From positions 50,882-114,881 of the forward strand of contig JAACZQ010000002.1 of the NCBI GenBank assembly GCA_009996675.1: a DNA stretch of 64,000 bases. Reading direction: 5' to 3'. Of the stretch, positions 7,398 through 29,721 are shown piece after piece. The stretch's first letter is position 1, and each line of letters begins with the position of its first letter. This DNA comes from Chitinophagaceae bacterium. GTDB lineage: Bacteria; Bacteroidota; Bacteroidia; Chitinophagales; Chitinophagaceae. The translations under genes and the position numbers were made by a program. A model generated the notes under the pieces. The model was given only the letters and a program-made list of their open reading frames with translations. It was not told the DNA's origin and searched no databases.

Positions 7398-8498
7398 ATG
7401 GGACTCACCACGTTTAATAATGTAAAAGCGGCAGAAGTACAGATTCTGCTGGACCAGCTTTGGGCTGAACCATCAACCTCCAAATCCTACGGTGTAAAAG
7501 CACACGCCCTCAAAGCAGTTCTGGAAAACCAGACAGCAGTGCTTACCGAATTGGAAAACCCTGATCAGAAAAGGGATGTATCAGTTAAATGGGTTGACTT
7601 CTGCGGAGATACCTCTGCTGATGGTCAATACGCAGATAACTGTACGCCTGCAGCCGGCGACGAAGGAACTGCGAAAAAGCAGGATTATGCCCTCGATGTG
7701 TTCATTACCGACAGCTATTCTGTAGCTCAGGAAGAATTGGAAAGTGCAGTTGTAAGCTACGATCAGATTGTAGCTACTGGCCTGGCCGCCAAAATCAAAA
7801 ACATCATCGAGCGTTTCAACGCTAAGGTTGTTGCGGCAATCGCTGCCAATAAAGGAACAAACCCCTTCCCGGGTGCCTATTCTTACGATAACGTAACGAA
7901 GGACACCACGGTAGTAGGCGCTGATTATGGGGTGAAAAAACTCTATCCATATTTCATGCAGGTTTCTGAAATGAACCGCAGTCAAAGCGTTTATCTGCTG
8001 GATGGTGGTAATCTTTTTCAGGATTACTATATAGCCAAGAAAACCGTTGCAAATGATAACGGTAAAGCTGAGGCAAGCATGTATGACGATATCCCATTCC
8101 GTCATGATATGGCCGGATTTGCCGCAAATGCGCTTTCTGCGAATAGCTTCCTGATCGACAAAGGATCCCTGGCTGTTGCCAACCGCGCCAAATTCCCTTC
8201 TCTGCAAAAACTTGCAGGAATGAAAGATGGCGGATGGATTCATACGTCCAACGGCAACATCATGAGGTATTCCATTCCTGTGAATATCCCTGATTTGATG
8301 CCGATGATGTTCATCAGCCAGAATGCATTGAAGAAACAGCAGCTTCTCATCGATGTACAGCACTCTGTTGTATGTACCGAAGGAGGACTGTTGCTTCCAA
8401 CATGGCAGCTTAAACTACGTGCGGGAGTATTCGCTAACCCGATCCGTTGCAATGCTGGCAACACCGGTATTTTGTCATTCGTAAAAGCAGCAGAATAA
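7398..8498 (+). CDS. putative major capsid protein
   Basis: 366 aa ORF following scaffold-like ORF; position and size. Confidence 0.65.
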   Translation: MGLTTFNNVKAAEVQILLDQLWAEPSTSKSYGVKAHALKAVLENQTAVLTELENPDQKRDVSVKWVDFCGDTSADGQYADNCTPAAGDEGTAKKQDYALDVFITDSYSVAQEELESAVVSYDQIVATGLAAKIKNIIERFNAKVVAAIAANKGTNPFPGAYSYDNVTKDTTVVGADYGVKKLYPYFMQVSEMNRSQSVYLLDGGNLFQDYYIAKKTVANDNGKAEASMYDDIPFRHDMAGFAANALSANSFLIDKGSLAVANRAKFPSLQKLAGMKDGGWIHTSNGNIMRYSIPVNIPDLMPMMFISQNALKKQQLLIDVQHSVVCTEGGLLLPTWQLKLRAGVFANPIRCNAGNTGILSFVKAAE

Positions 8499-8539: not shown

Positions 8540-8956
8540 ATGAAAAAGATATTCAGCATTTTGGCTTTTGTGCTGGCATTTACCGTGGGGGCTTCGGCTC
8601 AAACAGCGGTGCCGCTTTCGCCCGTTCTCGATAGCATCGTGACCTCATCAAGTCTCGATACATCTTACAGTTTCAAAAAAGTAGAAGGTTGGTGGGATGC
8701 AGTTTCCATTCAAGTCGTAATTCCAAAGGTAAGCGGCACCGTTACCGGTTATGCTTTACTGCAAGGCAGCCTGGATGGGGTTAACTACGCCAATATCACG
8801 ACAGATACACTTACACTGGCAAATGTCGCTACCAACTCGAAAGTATGGGCATTCAGCAGCGTTCCTTACGCATATTATCGTGTAGCTGTTTATGCCCCTT
8901 CAAGTACATACAAAGCGTATGTCCGGGGCTATATTTTATTAAGGCGAAAGCAGTAG
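8540..8956 (+). CDS. phage-encoded protein with predicted Sec signal peptide
   Basis: MKKIFSILAFVLAFTVGASAQ N-terminus; true start inside ORF 8447..8956. Confidence 0.65.
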   Translation: MKKIFSILAFVLAFTVGASAQTAVPLSPVLDSIVTSSSLDTSYSFKKVEGWWDAVSIQVVIPKVSGTVTGYALLQGSLDGVNYANITTDTLTLANVATNSKVWAFSSVPYAYYRVAVYAPSSTYKAYVRGYILLRRKQ

Positions 8957-12840: not shown

Positions 12841-13013
12841 TCAAGCTCTGGAAAGATTGGGATGAGATATGGTATTCAATGGCTGATGGGAACATATCAC
12901 AGATGGAAACACTGAAAGGAACCGAGGAGAATGCATTTTATAACCTATTCGACCTGCATAAAAGGAGAATTGACCGCTTAAAAGCAAAGCATCATGGCAA
13001 TAAGCAAAGGTGA
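12675..13013 (+). CDS. putative -1-frame extension of tail assembly chaperone (gpGT-like) or separate small ORF
   Basis: Open frame 12675..13013 is -1 relative to 12319..12840; plausible coding after about 12840 (IIKLWKDWDEIWYSMADGNISQME...). Confidence 0.45.
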   Translation, partial: RLDRGRYYSGQFFRICGRFSQNRSRKLQECHAKHFGSSKRAKGKDDRTEYTHIRIIKLWKDWDEIWYSMADGNISQMETLKGTEENAFYNLFDLHKRRIDRLKAKHHGNKQR

Positions 13014-16000
13014 ATATACGCTTCCGTTAGGTTTGGATGCTAACCCGGTCATCCAGGGGCTGAGGCAGACTAAATCGGGATTGGTTGAGGTGGCAGAGGC
13101 TGCCCAACAGAGTAATGCCTCAATGAAAGCAACATTTGAGGGGTTGAATAATGCGAACAAGGAAGCAACTTCATCCATTGTAAAGACCACTTCCGCGATT
13201 ACTCAGCAAGGGAAAGAACAGCAAACTGCCCTGAATCAATTCAAGGGGTATTATACACTACTCCAGGAGATAGCCGCGCAAAACCCCAAAAGCTTTTCAT
13301 CGGATACGCTAAAGCGGTATCAGGAGGCTATGGCGCAGATTTATCGATATGTTGGGAATATCGCAACCGCCAATACAGAAGCGTTTGATCCGGCTAAGAT
13401 CAAGGCTCTTGATTCAAGCCTTAAAAATGCGACCGGTGACCTTAATCAGTTCAAGACTATTCTTCAATTCATTAAAGAAAACCTGGGTGACCTAAATCTG
13501 TCAATTGGAGCACAAAAGCAACTGGGGGGCACTATCGATACTGTTTCTGGCTTATTGAATCAACAGCCAGATGAAAAGGCTCCTGCTCCAGTAATCCCTC
13601 CAGAATCAATTGATGTGCCTACTCAAAAGATCGTAAGCCTAAAGACTCAATTGAGAGCCATGAAGGCTGAATTAGGAACAATGGCTCAGGGAAGTCCTGA
13701 ATTCATAAAACTAGCAGCACAAGCCGCCGAAATTGAAGATAGGATTGGAGATATCAATGCACAGGTACGTCTATTAGCCAGCGACACAAGTTCTACCGAT
13801 GCACTGATCCAGGGTGCTCAAGGTATTGTTGGCGCATTTGTTGCCGCTCAAGGAGCAGTAGCTCTATTTGGTGATGACAACGAAGAGTTGCAACAGACCA
13901 TGGTAAAGCTTACAGCAGCCATGAGTGTATTACAGGGGGTTCAGCAGATAGGCCAACTAATCGATAAAAACAGTGCACTCAATGTTTTCCTTCTTAAAAC
14001 ACTGCGGCTACAGCAGGCTGAGGCTTCAGTGGCCACGGCTGTTGCTGAGACGGCCCAAGCCGGCGCGACAGTTGCGCTGGCCGCTGCGGAGGAAGGTGCA
14101 ACAGCTGCTACCTGGTCCCTTAATGCCGCGATGCTGGCGAATCCGGCCGGTGTAGTCCTTATAGCAATTGGGGCGCTAGTCGCCGCCATAGCCTATTTTG
14201 CCAGTAGTTCAGAAGATGCAGCCGAAGAGCAGAAGAAAGTAGCTGAGGCTATGAAGGAGGCACAGAATAATGCCAATGAGTTAGCTAAAGCATACACTAA
14301 AGTCTATTCGGATGCTGCAATCAATGCGGAAAAAGCAGTTTCTCTGGCTCAAGCTCAAGGAAAAAGCGAGGGAGAAATATATGTACTGAAACAAAAGGTA
14401 CTTTCCGCTAGAAAGCAGGAGGGGCTATCCATACTTGCTAATCTTGGCTTGACAAAACAAGATATTAGCTATAATGAAACTTTGTTGCAGGTTAGGCAAG
14501 AGCAGCTTCAGGTAATGCTGAACCAGGCTGTAGCTAATGGTGAACTTTCAAAAGATGATCAGAAAAAAGTTGAGGCATTAAAGGCTCAGATTGATGGCAT
14601 TAAAACAACCTTGAATGCAGCAAAAGAGGCCCAGAAGCAAATAGATGATGCTGAAGCTGAATCAAAAAATAACGCTGCTGCACGACAAAGGCAGCTATAT
14701 CTGGACAGCCTGAAGTCTGCTACGGCTCTTGCCGAAGCCAAAGCTGGACTAGCTGAAAAAGGAAGCCGGCAAGAGTTGAACATTCAAATTCAGGCAATTG
14801 AAGCCGCCAGGAAGCAAGCTTTGGCGGATGTAAATCTGACTGAGGGAGAGCGGTTTAAGATCAAGGCCGATGCGCTGAAAAAAATCGATGATTTGAATCG
14901 GCAATTCCGTGTCAATGCCATTAACAACGAAATTGAAGGTCAGAATATTCTGTTAAACTCAGCAAAAGAAGGCTCTAGGGAAGAGTTGAATGCGAAACTG
15001 GAAATACTAAAACTCCAGGCTGATACAGAACTGGAGCAGGAAGGCATTACCGACAACAAGATACTGGCCATCCGTTCCAAATTAGAAAAAGACTCTGCCG
15101 AACTGCGTAAAAAATACAATGCAGATGTAAGGATAAGTGCGGCAAACGCGCAGATCGATGACTTGAACGCATCTCTTACTCTGGTTAAGGAGCACAGTGC
15201 TGCGGAATTGGAGATTAAAAAACAGTTGATAGATCAACAACGACTGATTGATGTCGAGAATGCCCAGCAATCCATTAAAAGCGAAGCCGAATTAGATGCA
15301 AAACTGAAACAGATTGATGCTCAGGCAACCAAATCCAAACAGGATTTGGATAAACAATATCTCAAAAGTTATTTTGACAATAATAGGGAGATCCTTATTT
15401 CAGAGATCAACTTGCAGAATGCTATCCTAAAAGCAAAAATGGATAATCCTTTAGCAACCGATGAGGAGATATTTAAAGCTCAACAGCAGATCAGACAGAA
15501 TGAGCTTGATTCGATATCCGGGCAGCTTGATGACCTTGATTTTCTGTATGATATCGGAGTTGTTAATGAGGACGAGTATCAAAAGAAACTCAATGATTTG
15601 ATGGCCCAGGGAATTGCAAAACGGGCAGAACTGGCTAAAGCTGAAGTCGAGAATATCAAAAAATTTAACCTTGGAGCTACAATAATCAAGTCGCTGGGAT
15701 TAAACCCTAAAGATCCAGCCGTACAACAATTCATTAATGGATTCACAGGAGCCATATCAGGAGCGTATAGCAATCTAACGCAATTGTTTGAAAGCCAGGC
15801 CCAAGCTCAAATTTCTGCTATTCAGCGGGTTATTGATGCTTTGAATGATCAAATCAAAGAACAAGAAAGTAAAGTTAACGAGCAACGAAAATTGTCTGAA
15901 AAAGGCCTTTCGAATGATTTGAAGAATGAAGAGGCAAAATTGATGGATTTTAAGAAGAAACAACAAGAGCAAGTCACGGCTAAAGAAGCGGCTCAAAAAA

Positions 16001-16680
16001 AGTTGGAGGAGATCCGTAAACAAGAGGCGATTATTCAGTCCGCGTCTATCATTTCAGGCAACATAGAGACTGGTGTTAATATGATCAATGCTATGTCTAA
16101 AATTTTCAAGGCTCACGCGGGTATTCCATTTGTGGGTATTGCTCTGGCGGTTGGTTTCGGTGCACTAATGCTTTCATCTTTTCTGGCTATTAAGAATGCA
16201 ATATCAGCAGCAACATCGGACACTCCAAAATTTAGAAAGGGAGGAGGATTTTTGATTGATGGCCCTTCACATGAAAATGGCGGAGTCGGGCTTTATTCCA
16301 AAGGCAAAAAGATAGCTGAGTATGAGGGCAAGGAATATCTGTTTGCGGTTAATAAAGGGAGCAGCCAGAAGTATTTACCACTTCTTGAAGCGATAAATGC
16401 CGATAATAAAGCTGCTATTCTAAAGGAAGTATTAGGCGGTACACGTTTGCCAGATGCCTCTGTAAATGACACGATCAACACGCAACGAGAGGTGGATGAC
16501 CTGAAAGCGAAATATGCATTTTCTTTCGACAATCCGCATCTTGGTAGCATTGATGATAGATTGAGGCTTTTGGAAAGAATTGATGATAAATTGACCCCCG
16601 GTAAAACCGTTACGGACTATGGAGACTATGTTATCGAGCAGGACGGTAGCATTACCCGTAAAATATGGAAGAGGCGGTAA
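12994..16680 (+). CDS. tail tape measure protein
   Basis: 1228 aa, long coiled-coil Ala/Gln/Lys-rich protein with hydrophobic segments; longest ORF of the tail module. Confidence 0.85.
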   Translation: MAISKGEYTLPLGLDANPVIQGLRQTKSGLVEVAEAAQQSNASMKATFEGLNNANKEATSSIVKTTSAITQQGKEQQTALNQFKGYYTLLQEIAAQNPKSFSSDTLKRYQEAMAQIYRYVGNIATANTEAFDPAKIKALDSSLKNATGDLNQFKTILQFIKENLGDLNLSIGAQKQLGGTIDTVSGLLNQQPDEKAPAPVIPPESIDVPTQKIVSLKTQLRAMKAELGTMAQGSPEFIKLAAQAAEIEDRIGDINAQVRLLASDTSSTDALIQGAQGIVGAFVAAQGAVALFGDDNEELQQTMVKLTAAMSVLQGVQQIGQLIDKNSALNVFLLKTLRLQQAEASVATAVAETAQAGATVALAAAEEGATAATWSLNAAMLANPAGVVLIAIGALVAAIAYFASSSEDAAEEQKKVAEAMKEAQNNANELAKAYTKVYSDAAINAEKAVSLAQAQGKSEGEIYVLKQKVLSARKQEGLSILANLGLTKQDISYNETLLQVRQEQLQVMLNQAVANGELSKDDQKKVEALKAQIDGIKTTLNAAKEAQKQIDDAEAESKNNAAARQRQLYLDSLKSATALAEAKAGLAEKGSRQELNIQIQAIEAARKQALADVNLTEGERFKIKADALKKIDDLNRQFRVNAINNEIEGQNILLNSAKEGSREELNAKLEILKLQADTELEQEGITDNKILAIRSKLEKDSAELRKKYNADVRISAANAQIDDLNASLTLVKEHSAAELEIKKQLIDQQRLIDVENAQQSIKSEAELDAKLKQIDAQATKSKQDLDKQYLKSYFDNNREILISEINLQNAILKAKMDNPLATDEEIFKAQQQIRQNELDSISGQLDDLDFLYDIGVVNEDEYQKKLNDLMAQGIAKRAELAKAEVENIKKFNLGATIIKSLGLNPKDPAVQQFINGFTGAISGAYSNLTQLFESQAQAQISAIQRVIDALNDQIKEQESKVNEQRKLSEKGLSNDLKNEEAKLMDFKKKQQEQVTAKEAAQKKLEEIRKQEAIIQSASIISGNIETGVNMINAMSKIFKAHAGIPFVGIALAVGFGALMLSSFLAIKNAISAATSDTPKFRKGGGFLIDGPSHENGGVGLYSKGKKIAEYEGKEYLFAVNKGSSQKYLPLLEAINADNKAAILKEVLGGTRLPDASVNDTINTQREVDDLKAKYAFSFDNPHLGSIDDRLRLLERIDDKLTPGKTVTDYGDYVIEQDGSITRKIWKRR

Positions 16681-17408: not shown

Positions 17409-19808
17409 ATGTCACAACCTGCTTACAAATATCGTCTTACTTCAGATCGAAGGGCAATCCGAACAGTGAATCCGGTTGCCCGGCCTAAGATATCGTGGAA
17501 TAATGATAAGAGCGATTACCGGAAAGGGTACAATCAGACGATTGAAGGAGAAATCAAGTTCCAGGGATCGGATTATTTATGGCTACTGAAGCTGGAGAAA
17601 AGCAAGTACCGTTGTTTATTCATTACACTGCACATCGACAAACTATGCGGTGGCACATATATATCTGACTACGCTGTCGGCCGCTTGGCATTTAACAACG
17701 CTAAATGGGACCTGGATAAGCAAGAGGTTATTTTCAAAGTAGACAAAAACGACAGGTATAAATGCTATGATGATTATAAGGATGCTGAGTACAATATGTT
17801 TGCCATTGTGCCTGACCGTATTACGGCTAATCTTGCTCCAGGCATTCTGGAAACAATCACACAGACATATTTTGAAGACAATCCTGATGCTCCTCCGGCG
17901 GGGGATGGTTGGGCAGTATACGGTACTGAACGATTTGCTGACACTGATCCGGCAACAATTACTCAATACTATGCCCGCTATGATTTAGGCGGCGGTTTAT
18001 ACAAGCCCCCAATAATCTACAATATTCAGTATTTCAACTACGGTAGTGGAAATTTCGCAACAATTGGGAGTGTTATCGGATTGGATAATTCTGGTCAAAT
18101 TGATAATGGGATTCGTTTATACTCATTAATCCAGGCATTACACAGTCAAACATGTGGTGGGTTAGTGAAATCAAACTTTTTCCAGTGGAACCCAGACAGC
18201 TTTGAGGCCAATAACTATGTTACCGGTCAGCCTAATAAACTTAAGAAACTGGCCATTTTTCAAAAATCTGACGTAAAGCGGCCATACGCTGCAGCTAATG
18301 CATCCATCGGAAATATTACGCTCGATAAACTCCTCAATAGCCTCTGCATGATGTTCAACTGCCAATGGGATATTGACGATAATGGCAGTCTTATAATCGA
18401 GCATTATAGTTGGTTTGAGAACGGTGCCGGTTTGGACCTGACTTTGCCACGTTACACTAAAAATGTAACGTTCAGCCGGAAATATTCCTATGATTCCGAT
18501 TCGCTTCCTTCAAGGGAGCAATTCACATGGATGGATGCGACCGGTAATGCGGACTTCAAAGGTCAGGATATATACTATCGTAGTAGCTGCGTTAACAATA
18601 ATTCTGACGGAGTTAAGGCCTACAATGCGGATATTGTTACTACTGACGTGATCCACTGCTTAAGCAATCCTTTGCCTGATAGCGCAGTAAAGGATGATGG
18701 ATTCGTTATTATGGCTCTTGATGAGGATGGGAATGTTTATAGCGAACCAGGAATATTAGGGGCAGAATTGCCAAATAATGTTCTCGGATGGGCTTTATTG
18801 CACCGCGATTTCTACCGGCATGGAAGATCAATAAAACAAGGTTATTTGAACGGTGCTTTGACAACGTTCCTAAGCACAATAAAATCGAAAAAACAGGACA
18901 AGATTATTGTTCCATTATGCTGCGGAGAGGACTTTAACCCTAACGATCTGATCAATACAACCCTCGGCTCTAATGCTTCGGTACGGTCGGCAACTTATGA
19001 TCTGCAAAATGAGACACTTGAAGTCGAGTTGCTATACGGTGACGATGACATAGTAGATGAGTTGCCTAAGTTACGCAATGACTATTTCTGGTGCTGGAAA
19101 GGATATTATGTAGAAAAAAGTGCTCCTGGAGTGTTGCAAAATGATCTAACGGATGCTCCTCCATTAAATGTTGCAAATCCAGGAGTTTATTTGAGCAGCA
19201 ACGGGACTTTCACGCTCAATACAGACGGATCATTTATGTACACTCCTCGTGGGGGATTTGTAGGTCAGGATGAATTCGATTATGAGATAATTGATAGTAA
19301 TGGAGATACCGATTTTGGTAAAATCACTATAAATGTAATTGAAATGGAAATTGGAATGATGCTCATGTGGCCAGGCTCACTAGCAGCAATACCACCGAAT
19401 TGGATGCATGTAAATGGAGGATTACTCAATATCTCCGAGTATCCCGAATTATTTGACGTCATAGGAACGATATGGGGAGGAGATGGTGTAACTACATTTG
19501 CGCTACCTCCCTGTGGAATTGTTCCTGTAAACTCTGATCCTGAAATTAGTGATTTCGACACAGTAGGTAAAACTGGAGGACATAAAGAAATAGCACTCGA
19601 ACCCGGCCAGATACCTGAATTGGATATTGATATCCCAACAACCGGTTATGCGGCAATTGGTGGTGTCGGAAATAAGTTAGTGGGCCATTCTGAAACTCCG
19701 ACTGCTGCTGACATACCACTGAAAGTAAATGAAGGAGGGGGAGGTCCACACGACAATATGCCTCCTTACGGTGTATTTAACTTCATAATAAAGTATAGAA
19801 ATGATTAA
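17409..19808 (+). CDS. tail/baseplate protein with Ig/cadherin-like segment and C-terminal tail-collar domain
   Basis: C-term MLMWPGSLAAIPPNWMHVNGGLLNISEYPELFDVIGTIWGGDGVTTFALP is a phage tail collar signature; VLQNDLTDAPPLN...DGSFMYTPRGGFVGQDEFDYEI is Ig/cadherin-like. Confidence 0.8.
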   Translation: MSQPAYKYRLTSDRRAIRTVNPVARPKISWNNDKSDYRKGYNQTIEGEIKFQGSDYLWLLKLEKSKYRCLFITLHIDKLCGGTYISDYAVGRLAFNNAKWDLDKQEVIFKVDKNDRYKCYDDYKDAEYNMFAIVPDRITANLAPGILETITQTYFEDNPDAPPAGDGWAVYGTERFADTDPATITQYYARYDLGGGLYKPPIIYNIQYFNYGSGNFATIGSVIGLDNSGQIDNGIRLYSLIQALHSQTCGGLVKSNFFQWNPDSFEANNYVTGQPNKLKKLAIFQKSDVKRPYAAANASIGNITLDKLLNSLCMMFNCQWDIDDNGSLIIEHYSWFENGAGLDLTLPRYTKNVTFSRKYSYDSDSLPSREQFTWMDATGNADFKGQDIYYRSSCVNNNSDGVKAYNADIVTTDVIHCLSNPLPDSAVKDDGFVIMALDEDGNVYSEPGILGAELPNNVLGWALLHRDFYRHGRSIKQGYLNGALTTFLSTIKSKKQDKIIVPLCCGEDFNPNDLINTTLGSNASVRSATYDLQNETLEVELLYGDDDIVDELPKLRNDYFWCWKGYYVEKSAPGVLQNDLTDAPPLNVANPGVYLSSNGTFTLNTDGSFMYTPRGGFVGQDEFDYEIIDSNGDTDFGKITINVIEMEIGMMLMWPGSLAAIPPNWMHVNGGLLNISEYPELFDVIGTIWGGDGVTTFALPPCGIVPVNSDPEISDFDTVGKTGGHKEIALEPGQIPELDIDIPTTGYAAIGGVGNKLVGHSETPTAADIPLKVNEGGGGPHDNMPPYGVFNFIIKYRND

Positions 19809-20634
19809 TACTACTCTTAAAATACCTTTCACTTTTTATTCAGACTTAGCAAAGCAGCATAGATTCAGGCCTCAGCATCGAGGCATGGAACCATTTGGCC
19901 TGCCATGTCCACAAGATGCTCTGTTACCTTTCCAGATCAAAACAGAGATTACAGATCATTTCGGTGGGGCCAATGCCTGGAAACTGTTTGATATTGACGG
20001 TTACGCTGTACTTGATCTGACGGCCCAAATTGCCACACTGATCGAGACAAAAACGACCACAGACGGTAATGTTTATTTTACTTACAAAGGCAATCCACTC
20101 GGAGATATCACTTTACCGGCAGGATTTTACTATGTGGTATTTACTGCGGACATGGCCATATCGCCGGGTAGTCCGCTGCTCACGAATTGGTACAGCGAAG
20201 TGTTGGAGATTAAGGAGGTCACCGACATGGTCAAGCTGGAGTGGTGGAATGAGTCCGACATAGATCCATTGCTGTACCAGACTGGATATAAAAACAGGAT
20301 ATATCTGGATACTTATACAGAAGCAATGCCGCCCAATTTGATACAGGAAGGTGAAAACAACGGCGAAGGAGAGTTTGTGCCTTCATTCCATCGAGTAGTA
20401 TATAAGCACAAGTTTGAGGCTTTTATACCTGATTATCTCCAAGATGCTATGGCCATGTTACCTATACATGATCATGTGCGGATCACTGAAAATGGAGACT
20501 CAGCTCTCATTTACCAACTCAAAGTGACCCCAGATTATGGCGAAAATTACATTGGAACATGCAGGTTAGAATTTGAGCTCAGCAATAAGTATATGAAGAC
20601 CTCCTGCCCAAAGAATATTTCTTTAGCTTCATAA
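19801..20634 (+). CDS. hypothetical phage tail protein
   Basis: ORF in tail module. Confidence 0.55.
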   Translation: MINTTLKIPFTFYSDLAKQHRFRPQHRGMEPFGLPCPQDALLPFQIKTEITDHFGGANAWKLFDIDGYAVLDLTAQIATLIETKTTTDGNVYFTYKGNPLGDITLPAGFYYVVFTADMAISPGSPLLTNWYSEVLEIKEVTDMVKLEWWNESDIDPLLYQTGYKNRIYLDTYTEAMPPNLIQEGENNGEGEFVPSFHRVVYKHKFEAFIPDYLQDAMAMLPIHDHVRITENGDSALIYQLKVTPDYGENYIGTCRLEFELSNKYMKTSCPKNISLAS

Positions 20635-20665
20635 TACAAATTACTTTGTATTTTTAAACCTGTAA

Positions 20666-21544
20666 ATGAGTAATCAAAACCAATTCACTGAAACGCTTCC
20701 GGTAGTAGTTTTTAATAGCTGCATGCCAAATCTCAACGAGAGCGAGATAGCGGCAGTTTATATGGCCAGAAAATCAGCAGTACCATTTACTGATTGGACA
20801 GATGGGGAAGAATGGTCAGCCAGGATATCGAATAATGGAGTTCCTCCAGCTGGGAGTTCTTTTAGTGGTAAGGATCTAATCCGGTATTTCAGCGTGATTG
20901 GCGATATGCCACCATGGACTGAGGTTGTAAAAGAAATAAGCGGAAGCAGGCGGCAGATTACGCGAAAAGTCAGAACAATCAATGCCACCATTGATGAGAC
21001 GACATCGGAAAACTATGAGTTTTTGCGTGTACTTGAATTGCTATCCGGTATTACTATAAGGCTTTGGTTTTTAACAAAGGGAGGTATTCTGTATGGGGGT
21101 AATACCGGTATTCTGTTGAATGTTCAACTCAAGCCGGTATTAACGCGCGGGAATGGAGAGCTTGAGGTATTTCAGATGGTAGCGACTTGGACAGCGGCGC
21201 AAAGTCCTGAGCGAATATTCACAGAATCATTTGGCAATGTACTAACACCATCTATTCCAGGAGATGGTGGAGGCGGAGAGCCGGTTACGCCTGGAGAAAT
21301 TTATCGGGTTACTTATCGGGCAACTGGCGGGGAGTTTGGCTTCACAAATTCAGGATTGGTGAATTGCACAATTATAGCAATGACCAGGGGCGGAGCAGAG
21401 GTAGAAGATATCAAAATTGACGGCAGTGCACCTGGTTACAACCAAGTATTACACGACTATGAAACAGGCTCAGCAACATTCAATTCAGAACAGCCGCTTG
21501 TCCCAAATGAATTTATAAGAGTTGTGTGTAAAGCAAACGCATAA
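20666..21544 (+). CDS. phage tail protein (tail-tube-like paralog 2 with C-terminal extension)
   Basis: Paralog of 16754..17341 plus about 90 extra C-terminal residues. Confidence 0.6.
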   Translation: MSNQNQFTETLPVVVFNSCMPNLNESEIAAVYMARKSAVPFTDWTDGEEWSARISNNGVPPAGSSFSGKDLIRYFSVIGDMPPWTEVVKEISGSRRQITRKVRTINATIDETTSENYEFLRVLELLSGITIRLWFLTKGGILYGGNTGILLNVQLKPVLTRGNGELEVFQMVATWTAAQSPERIFTESFGNVLTPSIPGDGGGGEPVTPGEIYRVTYRATGGEFGFTNSGLVNCTIIAMTRGGAEVEDIKIDGSAPGYNQVLHDYETGSATFNSEQPLVPNEFIRVVCKANA

Positions 21545-21547
21545 AAT

Positions 21548-24394
21548 ATGAAGAAGATACTTTTTTTAATAGCACTCATTCCTGTACTTGCCTCAGCGCA
21601 GTATGCACCTAATGGTAATAGTACTCAAACATCAAGGCTGGCGGTTGATAACACACTATCGCTGCCATCCGGATGCGGCGTGCCGGCTGGTGTAACTACT
21701 CTGAGAGGTGGATATACTACCCGTCCAGCGGTCTATTTTGATACATGCGGTAAAACTCTTTGGATTTGGTCTCCGCAAGGCACGAGTTGGAAGCCAATGA
21801 GCACGGCTGATAGCACAATATGGGCAACAGTTTACAAGGTTAAAAGTGATAGTGCTGTATTACGCGGATTCATCAACTCACTGATTGCTGATTCAGTTTA
21901 TCAAGCTTCCCAGATCAGCCAGCGGGTGCGTTATGTAGATACCTCGGCAATGTTGGCCGGCTATCCTCGGTTAATCCGTTTTATTGACTCTCTGGCCGCC
22001 GTACAGGCCCGATTGAATACCAAGCTTAATGCGGTAGATACATCCAGCCTAAGTACCCGGATCAATCAGAAGCTGAATATTACCGACACGAGCGGTAAGT
22101 GGGTTGGTTACGGGTGGCTGTCATCATTGTTATCGTCCATCAGCGGGAAGGTAGCCGTTGGCGATACTGCGGCTATGTTGACCCCGTACGCAAAGAAGGA
22201 TGGAAGCAATGCGGCCGGGAACTGGCCCATTAATGCATCCACAGCCAACCAGGCTACGCAGTGGAATGGGCAGCAGTATGGAGGGGTGTACTCCGCCGGG
22301 ACGATCACTGCTATGATGGTGTATCAGTCTGGGCAATGGAAGTATGCAACAGATGCGGCCGCAATCAAAACATTCCTTTCGCTGAATAACGTATCCAATG
22401 TAGATGCCACCAATGCTTCGAATATTACCTCCGGTACGCTGGCAGATGCCCGGTTAAGTGCCAATGTCACGCTTCAGGGTAATACCTTCAATGGGGCCAA
22501 TCAGTTGGTCAAGCTGGATGGCTCCGGCAAGCTGCCAACTTCCACAATTCCATCCCTGGCCATTACGGAAACATTCACTGTTGGTTCACAGGCTGCTATG
22601 CTTGCCCTGTCTGCTCAACAGGGAGATGTGGCAATCCGGACTGATCAGCAGAAAACCTACATACTCGCTGCGGAACCGGCCAGCACTCTATCCAATTGGG
22701 TTTGGATGCAATTCCCTGATGCGGAGAATGATCCGATCTATACCGCTTCCTCCTGGTACAGCACAACGAATAATTCAGCGAACTGGAATACAGCCTATTC
22801 ATGGGGTAATCATGCAAGTGCAGGGTATGCCGTTGCCAGCAGAACAATTACAATCAATGGTACTACTTATGATCTCACCGCAAACAGGACATGGACGGTT
22901 GGTGATGTGAGAACAGATGGTTCATATAGCAACCCTGCTTGGATTACCTCACTTGCCTGGTCTAAACTGACCGGCGTGCCTTCAACCTTTGCTCCGTCAG
23001 CACACACGCATACTTATGCAGATTTAACCGGCACCGTTCCTACCTGGAATCAGAACACAACGGGGAATGCTGCTACGGCTACAAATTCAACACAGTGGAA
23101 TAGCCAAATTTATACAGCTTCTCAGGCATCTACTATTGATTTAATAATGGTGCATGAATCAGGCGGTACGTGGAAATATTCTACTGCATCTGCTGTACAA
23201 TCATTCTTAGGACTTGGTTCTAACGCTTACACATCAACTGCTTATTTGCCTATAACTGCTGGTAATAGTAATAGATTAACAGGGGTTTTATATGCCGATT
23301 ATGGTTCGGCTGTAAAATCTGCATACGGCGATATGTATGTTGCCAGAGGGTCGAATTTTGGGTATAGTAATAGTTACGGTGTAGTTATGCTCGGATATAC
23401 AGGAACTGCAAATGAATCACTTGCATTTGGTGTCGATTTGAGTTCAAACCCCTCTGGCTTATTTACTGGAAATGGGAGTGAATATTTTTGGCGTGAAACT
23501 GGAAGTTTCAAAACCCCAAATGCTGCTAATAATGGGTACAATACTCTTTTCTCATGGTCGAATTCAACTATTACATTTCCAAATGGTGTGAACTTTAGTA
23601 GTTCAGTTGCAGCATCTTCATTTGAGGCACCTATTTTTTATAAATCAGCAACAGGTAACAGTTGGCTAATAAATCAATCAGGATACGCAAATAGGGGCTT
23701 GTATTGGGATCAAAGTGAACTTGGTTGGCATTTTTACGACAACGGGTCTGCAAGAGTAAAATTAGGTATTGATGGTTCTGTAACAGGTGCAGGTACTTTC
23801 ACTGCAGGTTCATTCTCTGGTGCAGGTACAGGATTAACAGGAACAGCAAGCAGTTTGACTGCCGGAGCCGTGTCGCATCTTGGTGGATATGTGAATAATA
23901 TTTCATCGTCTATTCAATCCGCAACTGTTCAATCAATAATTGGACAAGATGTTAACAATAACATATACAGATATAATGCTTCCGCATTACAAACATTTTT
24001 GGGTCTTGGTACTGCAGCTTATGTAGCAGCAAATCAAAACCTGAATACCTCCAGTAACGTCACATTCGCAAATATTGATGCTTCTTTAATTCGCTCTACC
24101 GGTGATGTAATCGCTTACTACTCTTCTGATCGACGCTTAAAGAATAATATCAAACCTATTACAAATGCCCTTGCAACTGTAGAACGTATCGGTGGTTACT
24201 CTTATGATTGGAATAGCAAACAGGATGTGTATAGCGGCCATGACTATGGTGTATTGGCGCAGGAGATAGAGATCATTATGCCTGAAGCTGTGATAACAAG
24301 GCCAAACGGGTACAAAGCCGTTAAATACGAAAGACTGATCCCCTTATTAATTCAAGCAATCAAAGAACTGAAATATGAACTGGATAAAAGGTAG
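21548..24394 (+). CDS. tail fibre protein with signal peptide and C-terminal S74-type intramolecular chaperone
   Basis: N-term MKKILFLIALIPVLASAQ; C-term SDRRLKNNIKPITNALATVERIGGYSYDW...YGVLAQEIEIIMPEAV...KAVKYERLIPLLIQAIKEL = peptidase_S74 signature. Confidence 0.85.
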   Translation: MKKILFLIALIPVLASAQYAPNGNSTQTSRLAVDNTLSLPSGCGVPAGVTTLRGGYTTRPAVYFDTCGKTLWIWSPQGTSWKPMSTADSTIWATVYKVKSDSAVLRGFINSLIADSVYQASQISQRVRYVDTSAMLAGYPRLIRFIDSLAAVQARLNTKLNAVDTSSLSTRINQKLNITDTSGKWVGYGWLSSLLSSISGKVAVGDTAAMLTPYAKKDGSNAAGNWPINASTANQATQWNGQQYGGVYSAGTITAMMVYQSGQWKYATDAAAIKTFLSLNNVSNVDATNASNITSGTLADARLSANVTLQGNTFNGANQLVKLDGSGKLPTSTIPSLAITETFTVGSQAAMLALSAQQGDVAIRTDQQKTYILAAEPASTLSNWVWMQFPDAENDPIYTASSWYSTTNNSANWNTAYSWGNHASAGYAVASRTITINGTTYDLTANRTWTVGDVRTDGSYSNPAWITSLAWSKLTGVPSTFAPSAHTHTYADLTGTVPTWNQNTTGNAATATNSTQWNSQIYTASQASTIDLIMVHESGGTWKYSTASAVQSFLGLGSNAYTSTAYLPITAGNSNRLTGVLYADYGSAVKSAYGDMYVARGSNFGYSNSYGVVMLGYTGTANESLAFGVDLSSNPSGLFTGNGSEYFWRETGSFKTPNAANNGYNTLFSWSNSTITFPNGVNFSSSVAASSFEAPIFYKSATGNSWLINQSGYANRGLYWDQSELGWHFYDNGSARVKLGIDGSVTGAGTFTAGSFSGAGTGLTGTASSLTAGAVSHLGGYVNNISSSIQSATVQSIIGQDVNNNIYRYNASALQTFLGLGTAAYVAANQNLNTSSNVTFANIDASLIRSTGDVIAYYSSDRRLKNNIKPITNALATVERIGGYSYDWNSKQDVYSGHDYGVLAQEIEIIMPEAVITRPNGYKAVKYERLIPLLIQAIKELKYELDKR

Positions 24395-25229
24395 TCTGTT
24401 GATCGCTTTCATAGCGATCTGTGCAGCATTTTCATTCAAGAGAGTATATGTCGGTTTGCCCACTTCCGGGCAGATCACCATGGACATGATCCGGGCGGAG
24501 CTGGGCGTGCCCTCACAGGCCAATTTCAGCCTGGTTGCCGCGCGCAACGGCGTGTATGCCCCGCTGAACCCTTACAGCCCAACCTTGCCCCCCGCAACCG
24601 GCCAGGTTAAGCTTTCTGACTGGTACGGGTATTGCCACACCTGCACCACGATTTACACGCATACAGTGTATATCGCCGACTACCATGTGGGCAACCAGGG
24701 ATTCGTATCTGCATCAGCAGCATGCACCGGTAACCGGGACTACCCCCAGACGGTGTACAGCAGCTCCAGCACCCTGTCAGCCGGTGCCACGCTATTCACG
24801 CTATCCAGCGGGGTGTACTATCCATTCACGGTATCAGACACTGATCAGTGGATATGGTCGAACACCGGTACCAAGCCAATCCAGATGAATGGCAGCAACA
24901 CGATCTCAACCGTAGGGGCTTGCGGTTATACTGTTAACTGGTCGTTCGAGGACAATCCGCCATCCAGCGGCCGGACGTTGCTGATCTATAAGAACGGATC
25001 CCTTGTGGTGAATACCTCCAACACGGATTCAGGATCCTTCAGTTGCGACCCGGGTGATACGATTCGTGTATTGCTGTCCGTGTCACTGTTCGAGGGATAC
25101 GCCAATGCTGTGACAATCACCGGTGGCTACACATTCAGCAGCTCCAATTCTTCTGACACTGATATCGATACCGGTACGATCACACCGTCCGGGGGCACCG
25201 TAAACATTTTAGTAACCATAAACAATTAG
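24375..25229 (+). CDS. secreted/fibre-associated hypothetical protein
   Basis: Hydrophobic N-terminal segment, Ser/Thr-rich beta-like body, overlaps fibre gene end. Confidence 0.6.
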   Translation: MNWIKGSLLIAFIAICAAFSFKRVYVGLPTSGQITMDMIRAELGVPSQANFSLVAARNGVYAPLNPYSPTLPPATGQVKLSDWYGYCHTCTTIYTHTVYIADYHVGNQGFVSASAACTGNRDYPQTVYSSSSTLSAGATLFTLSSGVYYPFTVSDTDQWIWSNTGTKPIQMNGSNTISTVGACGYTVNWSFEDNPPSSGRTLLIYKNGSLVVNTSNTDSGSFSCDPGDTIRVLLSVSLFEGYANAVTITGGYTFSSSNSSDTDIDTGTITPSGGTVNILVTINN

Positions 25230-25230
25230 C

Positions 25231-25644
25231 ATGAAAAAAGTAATCATTCTGGCCATTATGGCCTTCTTTACAATCACTGCCGGCACTGCGCAAACCGCCG
25301 AAAAAGAGCCCGAAAGAACCAAGTTGCCTTACGTACAGGAAAAGGCTGCAAAACCGGAGAAACATAATACCGATACGCTGGTGGTGCCGCAGTCCGCCAA
25401 GTTCATCAAAGTGGGGGATAAGCTGATCCCGGTATCCGAACTGGCCAGCGCCGAGAAGATCCCGCTGTTCGTTCCCCTTGGCTGGATAATCGGCCAGTAT
25501 CAGTACCTGGATAATTCAACCGGAAGTGGCCTGACCAAAAAGCAAATCGAAGAGCTGCAGGGCCCACTGGAACCATACTACCGGTATTATCTCCAGGCCA
25601 TGCAGCAACAAAGGCAGGCAGCTGCGGAGAAACCCAAACAGTAA
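25231..25644 (+). CDS. hypothetical protein with signal peptide
   Basis: MKKVIILAIMAFFTITAGTAQ N-terminus. Confidence 0.6.
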   Translation: MKKVIILAIMAFFTITAGTAQTAEKEPERTKLPYVQEKAAKPEKHNTDTLVVPQSAKFIKVGDKLIPVSELASAEKIPLFVPLGWIIGQYQYLDNSTGSGLTKKQIEELQGPLEPYYRYYLQAMQQQRQAAAEKPKQ

Positions 25645-26147: not shown

Positions 26148-26793
26148 AACTCAATCGACCATGGAGATAATATTGGGAAGGCGAACTGTTTTCCTGGTAT
26201 TATCTCTTACGATACTCTGCAGTTGCGGCATCGTGAATAAATCCAAACAGCGGACTTATTCCAGTGTGGACAGCTCCGCTACCCATGTCACCCGGTCCAC
26301 GGCTGACCAGGTGCAGGATAGTGCCAATAAGAAAGCCTACGAACAGGCCACAGAGAATACTGTAGCCGATGAATCCATTGGCCGGGTAGAAGTGGAGTTT
26401 GGGCAGGATTCGGTAAAACCAACAGGTCCGGTCGTAATCTCACGTGATAGCAGCGGGAATATGGTCATTGACCCTGGTGGCCGGCCGGTAAAAAAGGTCA
26501 CTGATACACGATCCGCCCAGAAGTCGGCGACAACTACCACAAAAAATACCGGACTGGATTCAACCCGGGTAAGCAAGATCCAGACAACCCAGAAAGTCGA
26601 TAGCCTGGCTTCCGCACTGAAAAAAGAGGTCCGTTCTGCGGAGAAAAAAGTGTTCCGATGGCAAGTGCCATGGTATGCCTGGCTGATACTGCCGGTTATC
26701 GGGCTGATCGCCTGGCGGTACCGGCTGTACCAGCGAAAGATCGATACGGCCACAAAAATCCCTTATTCATCACCCAATGACAATACTGCATGA
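26137..26793 (+). CDS. lipoprotein with C-terminal TM segment (unimolecular spanin candidate)
   Basis: Lipobox-like LTILCSC near N-terminus; C-terminal WYAWLILPVIGLIAW; located in lysis cassette. Confidence 0.55.
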   Translation: MQTKTQSTMEIILGRRTVFLVLSLTILCSCGIVNKSKQRTYSSVDSSATHVTRSTADQVQDSANKKAYEQATENTVADESIGRVEVEFGQDSVKPTGPVVISRDSSGNMVIDPGGRPVKKVTDTRSAQKSATTTTKNTGLDSTRVSKIQTTQKVDSLASALKKEVRSAEKKVFRWQVPWYAWLILPVIGLIAWRYRLYQRKIDTATKIPYSSPNDNTA

Positions 26794-27380
26794 AAAATTT
26801 TTATCCGGAAAAGCCCACGGTGCCTTTCCAAAAATCAATGATTGAAATGGCTTTGATAATCGATGCCATTAAAAAGGCGCCATTCCCGGTTGAGGTAAAG
26901 CGGGCTGCGTATGTGGTGATTCGTAATGAATCATCCAATGGCCGTTCGGTGATCAATGGCAATAACCTATGCGGAGCCCAGGCCGATAGCGGCAGGTGGC
27001 CCCGGGCCTGGGATGCCAAAATCGCTGCTGTTACCTATAAGCGTGAGAATACGACCAATAAGGAGCGGATATTCCTTGTATTCGATAGCCTGGCCAGCGG
27101 GATAGCATTCGTGTGCGACCGGGTGCAGGCCAAAGGGATATTCATCGGTGAAAACGTGAACGGCCGATATTACAAAGGAGATGTTCGAACAGTAGAGCAG
27201 TTGGCGGATGCCTATGGCGATGAGTGGGTTCATGGCCGTGATGCCACACCGACCCCCACGGAAGTGCGCAATTTCACCAGCATGTATAATCAGGCGAAAG
27301 TGCTTTTCCCTGATGAAAATAAGGCGGAATCAGGTAATTCTACGGCGCAAAAATCAGGTATTAATACTGTAAAAAAGTGA
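26790..27380 (+). CDS. endolysin / lysozyme-like candidate
   Basis: AAYVVIRNESSNGRSVINGNNLCGAQADSGRW resembles transglycosylase-type ES-containing active site region; position after spanin candidate. Confidence 0.5.
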   Translation: MKNFYPEKPTVPFQKSMIEMALIIDAIKKAPFPVEVKRAAYVVIRNESSNGRSVINGNNLCGAQADSGRWPRAWDAKIAAVTYKRENTTNKERIFLVFDSLASGIAFVCDRVQAKGIFIGENVNGRYYKGDVRTVEQLADAYGDEWVHGRDATPTPTEVRNFTSMYNQAKVLFPDENKAESGNSTAQKSGINTVKK

Positions 27381-28338: not shown

Positions 28339-29541
28339 TTATGAAAACGGGTTATTTACTTTTCTCAGACGTTCTTCTTGCCTTGCTTTTTCTCCCAAGG
28401 CGTAGTGATCCATTGTAATTACGGGGGTCGTGTGCCCGGCCATCTTGGAGGCTTCCTGGAGAGATAACAGTTCCGCTGTTTCATCCAGATTAGCATGCTT
28501 CAATGTGTACAGATCAACCTTAATTCCAAGGCCGCCATCTTTGTTATCAGCTTTTACTTCATCGTGCCATTTTCGGGTAAGGTAATCGCGCTTACAGGGT
28601 TCTTTCGCGGGCGTAAAGTCGATGCCGAACAGATATTCTCCTGGCCGGGCTTCATTGTAGAGACTTACCCACTCATCGTATACGGCATCTTTGATCGGGC
28701 GGTACACTTGACGAGAAGATCCTCCCTTTTTTATTGTTACAATAAAACTACGGCCTGGCAGGTCGACATGATCTTTCTGCATCCTTAACAATTCAATCTC
28801 TCTGGCGCCGGAATGAAAGAAAATATGAAGGAATCTCAAATATGCAGGATCCGGAGCTGTTTCGGTATAATGGTGCTCAACTTTCTGGCGAAGTTCTTTG
28901 ACCATGATAGGCCGTATTTTCTTTGGTAGTGCTTTTTTAGCCACTCCACTCGCTGGATTTACTTCGTGATAGTCAATCTGTTTGAAGAGCATCATCAAAT
29001 AGGCACGGTAATGATTATAAGATACTTCTGATAAATTACAGGCATCGAGAATAGCTTTTATGTGCTTTCGGCTGACATCTTTCAAGACAAGATAATCCCA
29101 ACGCATTTTTCGAATTGCGACTGTTACATACTTCAAGCAGCTCTTTACGTTTGCCGCAGTAGTTTTCGGAACACTCATGTTTTTTAAAGCCATCTCCATT
29201 GCAGTAATTAATGGAGTATTAGGGTCTACGACTGGGGTGTTATATGCGTCTATGCAATATTGTTTTGTAATCGGATTGAATCCATCAATCTGAAGGCGCT
29301 TCATCTCCATATTAATTAACTCCTCCGTTGCAGCCTTTCGATCAGTTGGAGTTTTAAATTCATTCATCCCCTTAACCATAACAAGTTTAGGAGATATCCG
29401 TCCTTTGTCATTACGGACCGATGGGTCATAAAATCGGTACCATATATACCAATCTCTTTTAGTAGATGCAGACGCTTTCTTCCAGTTAGTGGGAGTTACC
29501 TTCAGTTCGGTGCAATAGCAACCATTGGGCAGTGTAATCAT
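28339..29541 (-). CDS. tyrosine-type site-specific integrase
   Basis: HSGAREIELLRM, LYTLKHANLDETAELLSLQEASKMAGHTTPVITMDHYAL catalytic-region pattern; adjacent to tRNA. Confidence 0.85.
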   Translation of the reverse strand: MITLPNGCYCTELKVTPTNWKKASASTKRDWYIWYRFYDPSVRNDKGRISPKLVMVKGMNEFKTPTDRKAATEELINMEMKRLQIDGFNPITKQYCIDAYNTPVVDPNTPLITAMEMALKNMSVPKTTAANVKSCLKYVTVAIRKMRWDYLVLKDVSRKHIKAILDACNLSEVSYNHYRAYLMMLFKQIDYHEVNPASGVAKKALPKKIRPIMVKELRQKVEHHYTETAPDPAYLRFLHIFFHSGAREIELLRMQKDHVDLPGRSFIVTIKKGGSSRQVYRPIKDAVYDEWVSLYNEARPGEYLFGIDFTPAKEPCKRDYLTRKWHDEVKADNKDGGLGIKVDLYTLKHANLDETAELLSLQEASKMAGHTTPVITMDHYALGEKARQEERLRKVNNPFS

Positions 29542-29639: not shown

Positions 29640-29647
29640 ATTTTTCG

Positions 29648-29721
29648 TGACCGCGTCAGGATTCAAACCTGAAACCTTCTGATCCGTAGTCAGATGCTCT
29701 ATTCAGTTGAGCTACGCAGCC
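29648..29721 (-). tRNA. tRNA-Arg(ACG)
   Basis: Reverse complement GGCTGCGTAGCTCAACTGAATAGAGCATCTGACTACGGATCAGAAGGTTTCAGGTTTGAATCCTGACGCGGTCA folds as a cloverleaf; anticodon loop CTACGGA. Confidence 0.93.

Follow-up and report, generated by a model that had tools for sequence, protein, structure and literature searches.

Layout of the prophage and its signal-bearing genes

The window (the whole stretch of DNA analysed, 64,000 nucleotides) covers the right-hand portion of a Bacteroidota chromosomal prophage, with terminase, portal, scaffold, major capsid protein (MCP), tape measure and tail genes extending to position 27380. Its forward-strand core genes include the MCP (7398..8498, assigned by position, and without homologues in INPHARED), the tape measure protein (12994..16680, assigned by size and position) and the tail tip/collar genes 17409, 19801 and 20666 (17409..21544), located immediately upstream of the tail fibre. 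None of these carries a signal peptide, and the first two served as core controls. A tyrosine integrase (28339..29541, reverse strand) beside a tRNA-Arg (29647-29721) forms the right edge of the prophage.

The original prediction ascribed Sec signal peptides to four genes of this prophage, all on the forward strand, and their reading frames and N-termini are exactly as it gave them. Gene 8540 (8540..8956) encodes a post-MCP 'cement'-family protein of 138 aa with a predicted beta-sandwich, beginning with the signal MKKIFSILAFVLAFTVGASA↓Q (the arrow marks the predicted cleavage site). Gene 21548 (21548..24394) encodes an S74-chaperoned tail fibre of 948 aa with the signal MKKILFLIALIPVLASA↓Q, a conserved N-domain containing the Cys pair C43/C67, and a C-terminal PF13884 domain (60.5 bits, cut-off 22). 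It is followed by an accessory tail-end protein of 284 aa with five Cys in its mature part (24375..25229; weaker signal or anchor MNWIKGSLLIAFIAICAAFS) and a small accessory protein of 137 aa (25231..25644; signal MKKVIILAIMAFFTITAGTA↓Q). A fifth exported protein, a predicted lipoprotein and putative unimolecular spanin (26161..26793, forward strand), combines an SPII lipoprotein signal (LCS↓C) with a C-terminal TM segment, and has a weak PHROG match to Rz-like spanin. The fibre gene starts 3 bases past the stop of the preceding tail gene, gene 24375 overlaps its end, and gene 25231 begins 1 base past the 24375 stop. These overlaps and spacings argue for a single late operon comprising the fibre, 24375 and 25231.

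Signal peptides were called with a home-made rule (K/R n-region, hydrophobic core, [AGS] at -1, permissive -3) and inspection by eye, not with SignalP. The rule calls all four genes, 24375 weakly, and none of the core structural genes of the window, and it also finds known secreted host proteins there (PafA-like 48147, and 51937). Shuffling the N-termini of 29 window genes gives an expectation of 0.49 calls (0.07 with Q at +1) versus 4 observed (3 with Q), and none of 60 spurious ORFs was called. The features of Sec/SPase I substrates (K/R n-region, h-region, [AGS]-x-[AGS]) are clear in 8540, 21548 and 25231, which have textbook [AGS]↓Q sites (ASA↓Q in the first two, GTA↓Q in the third). The exception to Gln at +1 is 24375 (MNWIKGSLLIAFIAICAAFSFK), in which the features are weak and the cleavage site is poor, and whose hydrophobic N-terminus could be an uncleaved anchor. 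Past the hydrophobic segment, this protein has a stretch (LPTSGQITMDMIRAELGVPSQANFSL) with weak similarity to phi18:1 gp62 (E 0.03), itself signal-free, and a phage domain may have gained an export signal here. Secretion as T9SS cargo was rejected, since the Pfam scan detected no T9SS domain.

Alternative downstream starts that would remove the hydrophobic N-termini were examined in the fibre and in 8540, and the full-length starts stand. The earliest in-frame GTG/ATG codons of the fibre are codons 45 and 84, and a start at either would cut away a domain conserved in homologues; 8540 has an internal GTG at codon 16, yet its full MKK... start is kept in homologues. Across 57 collected signals, 49 have [AGS]↓Q at a plausible cleavage site (51 pattern matches minus 2 at wrong sites), which agrees with the Bacteroidetes Q-rule (PMC5837995). 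The figure is descriptive, because the 57 proteins were selected partly on possession of a signal.

The fibre-lysis block in other phages

A profile search of IMG/VR with the fibre N-domain retrieved 30 loci, and every one with its start on the contig opens with a signal peptide, several being missed by the strict rule and plain by eye (e.g. MKKILIAVFCFLSLFSKG↓Q). Within the fibre subfamily, the Cys pair is retained by 9/9 members that have the full domain, which would fit periplasmic folding. In unrelated phages the same order recurs, consisting of core tail genes without signals, a fibre with a signal, zero to four accessory proteins with signals, a lipoprotein spanin and a lysin, and the neighbourhoods of the IMG/VR fibre loci repeat this layout. 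A spanin profile search of IMG/VR found no relatives.

An informative comparison is provided by G047, a prophage from the same genus, which has the fibre N-terminus including the signal in common with the window (26%, E 7e-6) and encodes a spanin homologue 39-40% identical to the predicted spanin of the window. No homology is detectable between the head and tail genes of the two prophages, and on this comparison the fibre-lysis block is judged to have moved by modular exchange. G047 carries three signal-bearing genes in a row, which include a positional counterpart of 24375. For the second and third, homology to the window genes is not clear, so that it is position and signal that persist and not sequence. 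G047 also encodes giant virion-type proteins of 1751 and 3735 aa (L082/L088/L089).

Signal-free fibres occur in other Bacteroidota phages (phi18:1, phi14:2, phi38:1 and 11b), indicating that export is not required in every such phage. The fibre profile (A6) does not match the Pedobacter zeae prophage, which nonetheless has a signal-bearing fibre at the same place. Signal-bearing proteins resembling polysaccharide-degrading enzymes lie directly beside the fibre at three loci (L118:13447-15756, L127:1082-3172 and L004:20965-22086); two are beta-helix-like by sequence and one is annotated as a heparin lyase.

The post-MCP cement family

The match between the 8540 protein and Pan5_07, the 'cement protein' of Pan5, an isolated phage, begins at residue 1 and takes in the signal. 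Pan5 keeps the gene order of the window (terminase, portal, MCP, cement, adaptor), and its terminase is the closest to that of the window among phage records. Pan5 (L004, ON968456.1) is recorded as a phage of the cyanobacterium Pseudanabaena and carries three Q-rule signals; with both terminase and cement closest to the Bacteroidota prophage of the window, its host assignment deserves a check.

Further cement homologues are present in the P. zeae prophage, two viral contigs and the prophages G377, G515, G419 and G426, and a search of Bacteroidota genomes gave few matches. The signal is present in 9/9 confident homologues, a count that leaves out weak matches among L039-L043 and L046-L051. The cement gene adjoins the MCP gene in the window, Pan5, P. 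zeae, the viral contig L002, G377 and G515, and is one gene away from it in G419, while G426 has no recognised MCP adjacent. A structure model of 8540 is a beta-sandwich (mean pLDDT 57) with best matches to phage tail-tip domains and carbohydrate-binding modules, a low-confidence prediction that does not allow the fold to be assigned firmly. All five phages with a cement signal and a readable tail end (the window, Pan5, P. zeae, G377 and G515) also have signals in the terminal fibre block; P. zeae, G377 and G515 had been picked by cement alone, and their tail ends then read.

Virion evidence from Cellulophaga phages

GenBank records of Cellulophaga phages mark particle-detected proteins as 'experimental MS/MS proteomics', a mark that denotes presence in the particle preparation, in which secreted proteins can co-purify, and that does not record cleavage state. 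In phi10:1, gp091, 092, 093 and 094 (structural, structural, pectate lyase and tail fibre) all carry this mark and have textbook signals. In phi19:1, gp101-104 are likewise all marked and signal-bearing, the site of gp104 being less regular and missed by the rule. The eight proteins form one contiguous tail-end block per phage. No signal is found in the MS-annotated core virion proteins (0/47) of phi10:1, phi19:1, phi18:1, phi14:2 and phi46:1. Within phi10:1 and phi19:1 the comparison is 8/8 versus 0/18 (Fisher p = 6e-7), where the grouping follows the signals and two protein pairs are common to both phages: the N-termini of phi10:1 gp093/094 and phi19:1 gp102/103 are near-identical, and the eight proteins are not independent. 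The 'structural protein' labels of Baltic Flavobacterium phages were dropped as proof, being based on sequence similarity and not on MS.

Signal-bearing tail-end proteins are thus reported as virion parts, and of the three readings offered in the original prediction, an unusual assembly route is the best supported, because signal proteins at the same position are MS/MS-annotated in two isolated phages. The same records bear on another reading, in which the exported proteins are soluble or envelope-bound tools of late infection (depolymerases, adhesins) that help progeny to escape by stripping capsule or occupying receptors, and that stick to particles in the lysate without being virion parts. 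The polysaccharide-degrading look of gp093 (pectate-lyase-type), Pan5_19 (heparin lyase) and the L118 and G377 proteins (beta-helix-like) is in keeping with such tools, as is the diversity of the accessory proteins, which are non-homologous between phages. However, four of four block members appear in the virion MS/MS of each phage, both the S74 chaperone and the very large size of the repeat fibres are typical of structural fibres, and the cement gene adjoins that of the MCP. We consider a role purely as late-infection tools unlikely.

Host secreted proteins and a possible origin of the signals

Chromosomes of related bacteria commonly encode S74 proteins with a signal peptide, as well as giant secreted proteins that contain fibre-like repeats. 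In relatives of the window host (L072-L087), chromosomal secreted proteins of ~1000-3600 aa have phage-fibre-like repeats, several of them encoded next to a UvrA-like gene at a conserved locus. Sequence exchange between phage fibres and host adhesins is likely, and may be the route by which the signal first arrived.

These host proteins lend some plausibility to lysogenic conversion, in which the lysogen would carry the phage proteins on its surface for adhesion or to exclude superinfecting phages, and Q-rule proteins of Porphyromonas phages have been read that way (PMC10367356). Against this, the genes in the window are embedded and overlapping within a late tail operon, the same kind of block occurs in the isolated phages Pan5, phi10:1 and phi19:1, and the four proteins have neither a T9SS sorting domain nor a lipobox. 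Surface display during lysogeny, also put forward in the original prediction, is weakened in particular by the spacing and overlap of the fibre, 24375 and 25231, and appears very unlikely.

Capture of host secreted proteins, the remaining suggestion, is plausible for the fibre in view of the host S74 and repeat proteins, but leaves the conservation of signals across phage lineages unexplained. In a further reading, the signals would be a functionally irrelevant inheritance from captured host genes, or would act as N-terminal hydrophobic anchors without export. Domains held in common with host secreted proteins, and comparable proteins without a signal in some phages, could be accounted for in this way. 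Nevertheless, signals persist across many diverged lineages, also on neighbouring proteins that are not homologous, with an SPase I site and mostly a +1 Q, and such sequences are efficient Sec substrates; we regard either version as highly improbable.

A proposed route of assembly

In the phages examined here, cleavable signals are found on the outermost parts only, which suggests that the prophage is one of many Bacteroidota tailed phages with export of the outermost, late-added parts of the virion. Our preferred explanation, to which we give a probability of roughly 0.6, is that outer appendages added late are exported and cleaved, fold in the periplasm, and are mounted on virions once the inner membrane is breached. 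The phage of the window is known here from its genes, and the MS/MS marks on signal-bearing proteins come from phi10:1 and phi19:1.

In the proposed sequence of events, the host Sec translocase would carry the fibre, accessory proteins and capsid cement into the periplasm during the late phase. Signal peptidase I would then remove the signal and expose an N-terminal Gln, and the exported parts would fold in the periplasm, probably with disulfide formation in the N-domain of the fibre. Meanwhile, core heads and tails would be built in the cytoplasm as usual, with the finished appendages waiting in the periplasm. When holin, lysin and spanin breach the envelope, these appendages would snap onto the particles; since the block lies directly ahead of the lysis genes, exported parts and released cores would meet at the inner-membrane breach. 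Export of the last-added parts alone would demand no change in packaging or tail assembly. In other phages, the kinds of parts that bear signals here are known to join the particle last, and decoration proteins bind finished capsids. The long tail fibres of T4 attach to fibreless particles (PMC3004832).

Whether Bacteroidota tailed phages follow such a two-compartment assembly, with a cytoplasmic core and with exported cement and receptor-binding appendages matured by pyroglutamate and disulfide formation and mounted at lysis, is in our estimate evenly balanced. Tailed-phage assembly is taught as wholly cytoplasmic; here, infectivity would be completed outside the cytoplasm. Passage of receptor-binding parts through Sec in many Bacteroidota phages would allow adsorption proteins to use disulfides and pyroglutamate caps, and virion completion would depend on host signal peptidase and the timing of lysis. 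Annotation pipelines that count a signal peptide against a virion role would be wrong for Bacteroidota, and the 'secreted unknowns' of gut and environmental phages would acquire a use.

Relation to known systems

Sec-exported virion proteins are already known, and what is new is the two-compartment reading for tailed phages. Filamentous phage coat proteins (Inovirus pIII/pVIII) are likewise Sec-exported, but are assembled at the membrane without lysis, whereas the phage described here is tailed, with terminase, tape measure and lysis genes. Export assembly of the filamentous type (membrane extrusion without lysis genes) was rejected given the terminase, tape measure and predicted spanin. The S74 fibres of well-studied enterobacterial phages are signal-free, with synthesis and mounting both taking place in the cytoplasm; the fibre of the window resembles them in its C-terminal Peptidase_S74 domain, repeats and tail-end position, and differs in bearing a signal. 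Similarly, 8540 resembles add-on capsid decoration or cement proteins in being small, predicted to be beta-rich and encoded beside the MCP, and differs in its signal peptide, which to our knowledge has not been described for this class.

The signals share the K/R start, hydrophobic core and [AGS]↓Q site of Bacteroidetes Q-rule SPase I substrates (PMC5837995), but here they belong to phage late-operon proteins with MS-annotated virion counterparts, and the Q-rule paper makes no mention of phages. Phages of Porphyromonas gingivalis (Nixviridae; PMC10367356) also have genes with Q-rule signals, as well as signals on MCPs and spanins. In that 2023 study the Q-rule proteins are of unknown function and are read as modifiers of the host outer membrane, without a link to virion appendages, and the MCP signal peptides are considered probably cut by the prohead protease (PMC10367356). 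Signal peptides have been counted in rumen Bacteroides phages (PMC5723332), and according to Benler et al. phage DGR target proteins are without signals (PMC6199706). In the openly accessible literature searched, we found no papers on the signals of tailed-phage virion proteins beyond PMC10367356 and the count in PMC5723332, and none linking Q-rule signals with virion tail fibres or cement.

The likely MCPs of several Bacteroidota phages (L054:10459-11544, L055:7885-9321, L056:9348-10895, L033:20778-21860 of pippi8-1 and L032:22949-24046 of FPSV-S1) have a basic N-terminus followed by one or two hydrophobic segments, a feature absent from the MCP of the window, and these segments possibly form a membrane hairpin.
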